A DNA stretch of 29,116 nt from a virus: IMG/VR virus record IMGVR_UViG_3300034200_000541, positions 1-29,116 of that record; one strand, written 5' to 3'. Within the stretch, counting starts at the first letter, position 1, and each line of letters begins with the position of its first letter. Shown here piece by piece: positions 9,790 through 11,448 of this stretch. The position numbers and the translations under genes were made by a program. The notes beneath the pieces are model-generated. The model ran no database searches. It had not been told where the DNA came from and was given only the letters and a program-made list of their open reading frames with translations.

Positions 9790-9797
9790 TATTTAGT
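9790..9797 (-). promoter_or_regulatory. Possible late promoter (ACTAAATA)
   Basis: It matches 6 of 8 bases of TATAAATA and keeps the TAAATA core, 19 bases before the ATG at 9771. It lies in the 29-base gap after the 338-aa gene. In AT-rich DNA this could be chance. Confidence 0.35.
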
Positions 9798-9800
9798 AGA

Positions 9801-10817
9801 TTATCTAACTCCATCCACATATCTATTTCTGGGGTCAAATGCGTGTGCTTTATTCGCAAAATTAACGGTAAGTCCTTTATATGGCAACATCGCACTTGCA
9901 CTTCTGGTGTTATTAGATTTTATCACCAGATACACATCGTTATTCAATCGCATTAAATCTCCAGGACTATTATTTTTAAATATGCTCATTCCATTCATAC
10001 TTATGATATTGCGACTTACTCCTGTCATTTTAGCATTTATAACAATGTAATCAACTCCGGTAGGTCCACCAAAACAATATTTTTTAATTTCATCTATCGT
10101 TGCGGGAACTCTTATTCCACCAATATTATTGTCAAAGACGGTATTTCCATTTGCAGTAGTTTTTAATGAAACTATTCCTTTTGCTACAGTATCTTGTAAT
10201 ACTTTTTTAGGTACATTTTGATATGTATCTGCACTACTCCAAAATGAAAAGTTTCCCTGTTTAAGTGATATTGTAGTGGTTTTTCCATCTTTTGTTTTAA
10301 TGGAAATATCTGGTTTTCCACCAGTCTGTCCGACTTTATCTGCAGATTTTATTGGTCCTATAGAAATTTTTTTATTACCACCATATACATTCAAAGTTAA
10401 ATTATTATACATATCAAATACTTGGGGAGGAAGGTCTAGTTCTTCCTTCAACTCTTTCAATCTTTGCAGTTCATCTAAAATTACAGAATGAAAATATAGT
10501 TCATATGCTTCACCTGGTTTCAATACAGGACTAGTTTTTCTAGTAGATCTTTCTAATTGAATTTTAATATATCCATATCCGTTTTCAGTAACTCTTATTT
10601 TTCCAACATCTCCATCAATTTCTTTTTTTAATTTAATATTAGGATATAATCTAAGAAGTTCAGAATGTATCCTTTCATATAATGGTTTTCCATTAGACAA
10701 TTCTCTTGGTCTAACTGTGACTGTATAATTTTTTTTATACACTACACTATTTGAACTAGCAATTGAATTTACTGTATAATATAGTTTTGTCACATCTACG
10801 TTAAAATTTGCTGTCAT
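9801..10817 (-). CDS. Hypothetical protein with possible PD-(D/E)xK nuclease core
   Basis: The 338-residue protein begins MTANFNVDVTKLYYTV from ATG 10817; a TTG directly before it is also in frame. I do not recognise the whole protein. Its middle has KPDISI (D170) followed after a turn by ISLKQ (S184, K186) and a polar segment (GNFSFWSSAD). The D...(S/E)xK spacing on neighbouring beta strands is what restriction-endonuclease-like folds show, so a nuclease is possible but unproven. E105 or E117 could be further acidic residues. The start codon lies immediately behind a hairpin whose 3' arm holds the ribosome site, and a late-type promoter lies in the hairpin loop. Early translation is probably blocked and late translation allowed. 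Confidence 0.8.
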   Translation of the reverse strand: MTANFNVDVTKLYYTVNSIASSNSVVYKKNYTVTVRPRELSNGKPLYERIHSELLRLYPNIKLKKEIDGDVGKIRVTENGYGYIKIQLERSTRKTSPVLKPGEAYELYFHSVILDELQRLKELKEELDLPPQVFDMYNNLTLNVYGGNKKISIGPIKSADKVGQTGGKPDISIKTKDGKTTTISLKQGNFSFWSSADTYQNVPKKVLQDTVAKGIVSLKTTANGNTVFDNNIGGIRVPATIDEIKKYCFGGPTGVDYIVINAKMTGVSRNIISMNGMSIFKNNSPGDLMRLNNDVYLVIKSNNTRSASAMLPYKGLTVNFANKAHAFDPRNRYVDGVR

Positions 10818-10820
10818 CAA

Positions 10821-10855
10821 AAATCCCCTTTTCTTTTATTTAGAAAAGGGGATTT
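10821..10855 (-). promoter_or_regulatory. Ribosome-site-sequestering hairpin, also terminator-like
   Basis: The minus strand forms a perfect 14-bp stem, AAATCCCCTTTTCT pairing with AGAAAAGGGGATTT, around a 7-base loop (AAATAAA). The 3' arm contains the only good ribosome site (AAGGGG) for the ATG at 10817, so an upstream transcript would fold it away. The run TTTTT after the arm also makes it resemble a terminator for the 59-aa gene that stops at 10862. Confidence 0.85.
10837..10844 (-). promoter_or_regulatory. Late promoter inside the hairpin (TCTAAATA)
   Basis: It matches 7 of 8 bases of TATAAATA and spans the end of the 5' arm and most of the loop of the hairpin at 10821-10855. A start a few bases beyond would give RNA with the ribosome site but without the 5' arm. 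Confidence 0.6.
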
Positions 10856-10861
10856 AAAATA

Positions 10862-11041
10862 TTATTCAGTTTCTATAACTTGACTAATTGCATCATCAAG
10901 GTCAGCAATTACTTCACGCAATTCAAAAATACGAATAGGTGTTGTTTCAATATTACTAGTATATCCATTTTGTGCTTCAAATAATACCTGTCTAACTGCA
11001 GCAGCAGACCGAACATCCATTTCTAATTTAACTTTACTCAC
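10862..11041 (-). CDS. Small hypothetical protein, 59 aa, GTG start
   Basis: The frame opens with GTG 11041, which overlaps the mazG stop by 4 bases (GTGA), and a GAGGA ribosome site lies 9-10 bases upstream. The 59 residues begin VSKVKLEMDVRSAAAVRQVL (initiator read as Met) and end with DDAISQVIETE. The protein is acidic, with two probable helices joined by a short linker, and no known motif. The overlap and ribosome site make it a credible last gene of the gp43-uvsX-gp41-mazG operon. It could bind a neighbour's product, but nothing in the sequence shows this. Confidence 0.75.
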   Translation of the reverse strand: MSKVKLEMDVRSAAAVRQVLFEAQNGYTSNIETTPIRIFELREVIADLDDAISQVIETE

Positions 11042-11448
11042 AGGTCACCGTCCTCACGATTTTCGGAGTAGTAAACATCAAATGCACCACCAGGATAACG
11101 TTTCTCCAGTTTCTTCACATTACGGGCAATAACCTCATCAAAAGAAACTTCAAGTGCCATACAAGCTTGAGCAACATACCACATCAAATCACCTAGTTCA
11201 AGCAAAAGATGTTCTTTATTATCTACATTCCAAGGTTTACCTTGGAAAATCATCTTCTTGATAATTTCAAGAAACTCACCACCTTCAGCATTAATTCCAA
11301 CACCAGCAGTAAGGAGTCGTTCAATATTTGCTCCCTTTTCATCCAATTCAACCAAACGGTCAGAAAGAGCAACAAAATCAGTAGAGGCATCAGAGGTTAC
11401 TGCATCTACAAATTCTTGGTACTTCCCAAAATCAATTTGCTTCGTCAT
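11038..11448 (-). CDS. mazG: MazG-like nucleotide pyrophosphohydrolase
   Basis: MazG-type all-alpha pyrophosphohydrolases cleave nucleoside triphosphates to monophosphate and pyrophosphate. This 136-residue single-domain form has the metal-binding pattern E55/E58 (EGGEF), E61, and later E84/D87 (ELGDLMWYV), the expected ExxE...ExxD layout. Cyanophage MazG was once proposed to act on the alarmone ppGpp. My recollection is that biochemical work instead favours nucleotides such as dGTP and dCTP. It starts 2 bases after gp41 stops and overlaps the 59-aa gene, so it belongs to the replication operon, consistent with nucleotide-pool control during replication. Confidence 0.9.
   Translation of the reverse strand: MTKQIDFGKYQEFVDAVTSDASTDFVALSDRLVELDEKGANIERLLTAGVGINAEGGEFLEIIKKMIFQGKPWNVDNKEHLLLELGDLMWYVAQACMALEVSFDEVIARNVKKLEKRYPGGAFDVYYSENREDGDL

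Follow-up and report, generated by a model that had tools for sequence, protein, structure and literature searches.

A composite hairpin between the mazG operon and a late gene

The hairpin in front of a predicted late gene of 338 aa is, quite probably, a composite early/late boundary element in which a terminator, a ribosome-site mask, and an internal late start precede exchangeable cargo. It was found in the window, the whole 29,116-nucleotide stretch of DNA analyzed here, which comes from an uncultured virus of cyanobacteria (IMG/VR record IMGVR_UViG_3300034200_000541). The hairpin (10821..10855, minus strand) measures 35 nt overall, with a 14-bp stem without mismatch and a 7-nt loop. Its 14-nt arms (10821-10834 and 10842-10855) are 100% complementary and separated by 7 nt, and the minus strand reads AAATCCCCTTTTCT-AAATAAA-AGAAAAGGGGATTT-TTG-ATG. 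The RNA folds at -20.7 kcal/mol (z = -4.9), and 1 of 200 shuffles was equally stable. An Rfam search with the hairpin returned no match.

The operon upstream is gp43-uvsX-gp41-mazG-59-aa ORF, in line with the gp43-mazG operon named in the earlier note. Within it, mazG (11038..11448, minus strand) is the constant upstream neighbor of the hairpin element, and the 59-aa ORF (10862..11041, minus strand; phrog_24723) is the final gene of this early/middle operon. The minus-strand spacer from the end of this ORF (10862) to ATG 10817 is TATTTTAAATCCCCTTTTCTAAATAAAAGAAAAGGGGATTTTTG. Judged by gene order, the 338-aa gene (9801..10817, minus strand) stands at the end of the early/middle transcription unit, as a T4-type bypass requires. 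Between the previous gene’s stop and ATG 10817, AAGGGG (10825..10830, minus strand) is the only ribosome site, and it lies within the 3′ arm. This arm is followed by TTTTT (10819..10823, minus strand), then G, then the ATG, so placed that the T-run would be both terminator tail and spacer. The 5′ arm AAATCCCCTTTTCT (10842..10855, minus strand) pairs with the ribosome site. The earlier note had described a perfect 14-bp hairpin with the sole ribosome site in its 3′ arm, and its coordinates and motifs proved correct.

A late promoter motif inside the hairpin

A late promoter-like TCTAAATA (10837..10844, minus strand) stretches from the upper end of the 5′ arm into the loop; it is a candidate promoter that fits a TATAAATA-like box at -13 to -6. 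It differs from that consensus at a single base, as had been noted earlier, the deviation being a C at -12, which Aeh1 shares. The late consensus of Aeh1 is CTAAATA, and Aeh1 late promoters carry the same seven bases starting at -12 (PMC1524935), whereas in these cyanophages ATAAATA is the main motif and CTAAATA a variant. Because T4 late boxes occupy -13 to -6 (PMC1524935, PMC2988020), we place the predicted late start (+1) at 10831 on the minus strand, inside the 3′ arm. A start within the hairpin means that late RNA, predicted to read AAAGGGGAUUUUUG-AUG, would lack the 5′ arm; motif and T4 spacing thus agree with the late-started RNA proposed earlier. No sigma-70-like match was listed within the element.

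In relatives, CTAAATA sites lie at most 60 nt from a start in 7 of 27 cases compared with 47 of 90 for ATAAATA, which counts against the composite reading. All 16 CTAAATA/ATAAATA sites of the window are on the minus strand, as are all genes, and 6 of them have a listed ORF start no more than 60 nt downstream. A CTAAATA at 9790..9796 (minus strand) has no hairpin and is likely a separate late promoter of the 398-aa cytidyltransferase gene (ATG 9771).

Predicted masking of the ribosome site

By sequence and folding, the Shine-Dalgarno (SD) sequence of the window lies inside a stable stem in read-through RNA. Relative L001 has an identical leader; from it we computed an anti-SD duplex of -6.9 kcal/mol and an SD unpaired probability that rises from 0.0 in read-through RNA to 0.77 in the predicted late RNA. 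The folding computation therefore favors the earlier claim that early read-through RNA hides the ribosome site.

We then compared 61 elements with 44 other late-motif genes from two relatives. The median anti-SD duplex was -8.2 kcal/mol for the elements versus -0.8 kcal/mol for the other genes, and values at or below -4 kcal/mol occurred in 56/61 versus 12/44. Predicted late leaders span 13–19 nt across the elements, that of the window being 14 nt. Median SD unpaired probabilities in the 61 elements were 0.0 for read-through RNA and 0.6 for predicted late RNA. In many of them, however, the SD of the predicted late RNA is only moderately accessible, as 21/61 combine a late value above 0.7 with a read-through value below 0.3. 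A weak SD in a few elements (L018, L118, L120, L125, and L126) also counts against the composite reading.

Terminator-like features and arm orientation

The tail of the window hairpin, GGGGATTTTTG, is terminator-like, with a stable stem and five T directly after it. Runs of at least five T follow 45 of the 54 elements at the mazG junction, but the five-T tail of the window is shorter than those in many relatives, which speaks against the composite reading. T-runs of at least four are present in 57/61 element leaders versus 6/44 other late-motif leaders. A simple terminator scanner did not call the hairpin in the window; the likely cause is pairing between some of the T-run and the A/T foot of the stem.

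Intrinsic terminators likewise have a perfect, G+C-containing stem followed by a T-run; the hairpin described here differs in its C-rich 5′ arm, its immediate start codon, and the promoter motif in its loop. We counted arm orientation in 29 non-redundant late-motif hairpins and 77 other terminator-like hairpins. All 29 late-motif hairpins have a C-rich 5′ arm (G-rich 3′ arm), and all 29 are followed by ATG. Among the other 77, the 5′ arm is G-rich in 51, C-rich in 21, and equal in 5, and it is G-rich in all seven of those beside an ATG. Arm orientation separates putative ribosome-site function from termination alone. The element is probably a T4-like switch fused to a terminator, and the suggestion that the hairpin may act twice fared well in that terminator plus mask appears at least as well supported as masking alone.

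The genome of relative L310 has a second, different overlap of terminator and late promoter. This second design (G011:121.8 kb in L310; also L301 and L015) has a G-rich-first terminator that carries AATAAATA at its 5′ edge and whose T-run extends up to the ATG, and late RNA would drop much of the terminator’s 5′ arm.

Conservation among IMG/VR relatives

The 338-aa gene has 12 relatives in IMG/VR. Three (L001–L003) are near copies, and L004, L005, and L006 keep the loop motif with the stem altered on both sides, leaving one mismatch in L006. We scanned IMG/VR with the 17-mer TTTCTAAATANAAGAAA, leaving the outer stem out of the query. Almost all matches with a stem extended by at least 5 bp lie just after mazG and before a gene, with the 398-aa cytidyltransferase gene further downstream of that gene. 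The remaining matches, mostly scattered, unstructured, and unrelated, served as controls. Each of 18 records holds at most one copy of the 17-mer per genome, which rules out a dispersed repeat.

Stem positions 1–8, which were not in the query, are paired in 40–52 of the 54 distinct elements found at the mazG junction. At seven of these positions, 0/1000 shuffles reached the observed pairing, and 20/1000 did so at the nearly invariant position 4; in 52 control matches elsewhere, pairing was near chance. Searching with the 3′ half only gave 47 stretches (32 distinct sequences), each of which has a 5′ arm that is complementary for the most part. With a scrambled loop (CTAAATA to CTAATAA), an outer stem of at least 5 bp was found in 2/93 matches versus 51/112. 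The alignment proposed in the earlier note thus bore out both compensatory changes in the stem, including the 5′ arm, and conservation of the loop motif. These data support selection on the stem, the loop motif, the G-rich 3′ arm, and the T-run. The hairpin is a conserved class of predicted elements that recurs at one place in dozens of related viruses.

The junction in cultured isolates

A BLAST search with the whole element against named phages gave chance matches only, and we located the element in these phages by synteny at the mazG junction. A composite hairpin with a different inner stem is present in Syn1 (TCTAA-ATAG-TTAGA), S-H9-1, ACG-2014i, S-CAM4, ACG-2014h, S-RSM4, S-WAM2, and S-BM3. 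The 3′ arm in this group usually has GGGAGG, with GGAGG in S-WAM2 and AAAGGG in S-BM3. Other arrangements occur as well: in S-8S55 a terminator abutting the ATG has AATAAATA at its 5′ edge, S-PM2 has a hairpin and then a promoter, and L018 and L064 have a complete terminator with a late motif immediately after. The late motif stands without the composite hairpin in S-SSM7, P-HM2, DSL-LC03, S-SRM01, Sf-CH11, and syn9, and S-H34 has no late motif before the examined gene. A predicted late start is a near-constant feature of the junction, and it commonly takes the form of the fused hairpin. The composite hairpin is not essential, since several isolates, among them syn9, S-PM2, S-SSM7, and P-HM2, keep the late motif without it, which counts against the composite reading.

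By eye, tRNA-like sequences lie in the mazG/late junction of S-PM2 and S-SRM01 (L283 and L014), and in S-RIM32 and S-H9-2 the junction is preceded by tRNA-like ends. In ACG-2014d (L293, before position 824), another hairpin, ATAGTGCCA/TGGCGCTAT, carries CTAAATA in its loop; the ribosome site lies outside this hairpin, and it has no T-run.

Exchange of the gene behind the hairpin

BLAST groups the 54 downstream proteins into seven unrelated clusters. We took the 53 pairs that share at least 85% identity along 150 nt or more through the hairpin, and 26 of these have unrelated downstream proteins; examples are L017/L033 (100% over 317 nt) and L058/L106/L160. In three pairs inspected, similarity ends at or just before the ATG. 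Swapped cargo was also noticed at L065, L120, and L126. In L007–L011, the 338-aa gene is located at another site, behind a gp46-like end, and has CTAAATA but no hairpin. Together with the unrelated genes found behind the hairpin, this case indicates that the hairpin belongs to the site, not the gene. The earlier note had tied the hairpin to the 338-aa gene, which does not hold; the element belongs to the mazG/late junction. That note had also taken loss of the stem with retention of the gene as grounds for abandoning its proposal, and L007–L011 literally show this, but in a different genomic setting. The hairpin is also a boundary of gene exchange.

Proposed mechanism and alternatives

A T4-like switch is well supported by the sequence, from which we also infer termination, initiation, and timing. 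RNA polymerase arriving from the gp43-mazG operon would transcribe both arms, and the hairpin with its T-run would end most of this RNA. Read-through RNA would retain the hairpin, burying the sole SD of the 338-aa gene, as folding predicts; with the 3′ arm reused as a ribosome site, masking in such RNA would follow physically. Late in infection, a gp55-type RNA polymerase would start within the hairpin at about 10831, directed by TCTAAATA, assuming T4 spacing. Lacking the 5′ arm, late RNA would neither terminate nor mask, so that, on the simplest reading, the late promoter would be exempt from its own terminator, and it would be translated from the 14-nt leader. Comparison among phages shows that the element stays at the mazG junction and that the gene behind it is exchanged, which would give any arriving gene ready-made late-only expression.

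The strong SD always found in the 3′ arm, the uniform orientation (29/29), and the T4 precedents would also suit a purely translational switch of the T4 e/soc/I-TevI kind, with the T-run as an unstructured spacer and no termination. We consider this unlikely, given the T-run contrast with other late leaders (57/61 versus 6/44) and the plain terminators that replace or precede the element at the junction or at another late gene in S-8S55, L018/L064, and L310, which point to termination as a shared role. Conversely, an ordinary intrinsic terminator of the mazG operon, overlapping a late promoter by chance and with no translational regulation, would explain the stem and T-run, and seven terminators do lie beside an ATG without masking. 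Yet most other terminators have a G-rich 5′ arm, as do all those beside an ATG; promoter-bearing hairpins are always the reverse, and their SDs are unusually strong, making this account very unlikely.

Near-identical DNA through the hairpin ahead of unrelated genes could also reflect an element that serves above all as a recombination joint, the late equivalent of a PeSL cassette, in which shared sequence allows gene exchange and regulation is secondary. This is highly improbable, as the stem varies with compensation, which a homology handle does not need, and conservation follows base pairing, SD, and promoter. A functionless chance hairpin has only the AT-rich composition in its favor and, contradicted by covariation, synteny, and controls, deserves almost no credence. 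The composite boundary element remains our preferred reading. That it is, further, a standard 35-nt late-expression joint across marine T4-like phages, one that fuses a masked ribosome site with a terminator and a late promoter and repeatedly receives interchangeable late genes (possibly nucleases that have to stay silent during replication), we put at slightly below even.

Relation to known systems

Late-promoter bypass of a ribosome-site hairpin is a textbook principle of T4. In the sections consulted of PMC3014915 and PMC2988022, early RNA hides the ribosome site in such hairpins, and a late promoter inside or beside them yields RNA that lacks the 5′ strand; cases so described are T4 e, soc, 49, and I-TevI (PMC3014915) and segB and Aeh1 mobE (PMC3014915, PMC2988022). 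The earlier note’s appeal to e, soc, and I-TevI agrees with these sections, which do not describe the T4 hairpins as terminators. The hairpin here differs in its terminator-like tail, its fixation at one junction, and its position before many unrelated genes. The consulted part of PMC3014915 lists syn9, S-PM2, P-SSM2, and P-SSM4 as lacking gene e and gives no cyanophage case of such a hairpin. In Sullivan 2010, promoters and terminators were predicted separately, and the words hairpin and stem-loop are absent from its main text. As the earlier note had supposed, we found no cyanophage description in the literature searched, with subscription papers outside its scope; within that literature, the T4-style mask is provisionally new to cyanophages.

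Promoter-early stem-loops (PeSLs) are likewise composite promoter-terminator stem-loops at gene-exchange boundaries, reportedly at gene-exchange sites of T4-like phages. Arbiol 2010 and Comeau 2014 are cited for them in PMC4503421. PeSLs have early promoters, whereas the hairpin element, which also lies at a gene-exchange boundary, has a late-type motif in its loop, with no early promoter beside the stem-loop, and a ribosome site in its stem. The mechanism would be that of T4; the terminator fusion, fixed position, and swapping cargo appear undescribed.

A T4 trick known from a handful of genes is perhaps conserved as a regular feature of very abundant marine phages; the data suggest that termination of early RNA, initiation of late RNA, and masking of the ribosome site it carries can all reside in one short element. 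This offers a testable view of early/late separation in cyanophages, which to our knowledge lack the T4 middle-mode factors. New late genes could be acquired with the correct timing already in place, and the cultured carriers Syn1, S-RSM4, S-WAM2, and S-BM3 make the element directly testable.

The 338-aa protein and other cargo

Searches of Pfam, PHROGs, and NCBIfam were uninformative for the 338-aa protein, and a PDB fold search with its structure model (pLDDT 78.7) gave no match below 1e-3. Against a viral library, the model, predicted to have a restriction-endonuclease-like fold, matched the type II restriction enzyme CviJI (E 6.3e-6), the nearest annotated match, as well as a chlorella-virus protein (2.3e-7) and Stenotrophomonas phage proteins (down to 2.6e-11). 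D170 and E48 are invariant, and S184-L-K186 was also noted; we suggest only that these residues suit a PD-(D/E)XK site. The protein is possibly a late nuclease and, if so, would parallel the T4 endonuclease I-TevI, which is under the same control (PMC2988022). The PDB fold search gave no match for a second cargo family, and we do not claim that all cargo are nucleases. Some cargo clusters carry nuclease-like D..ExK motifs.
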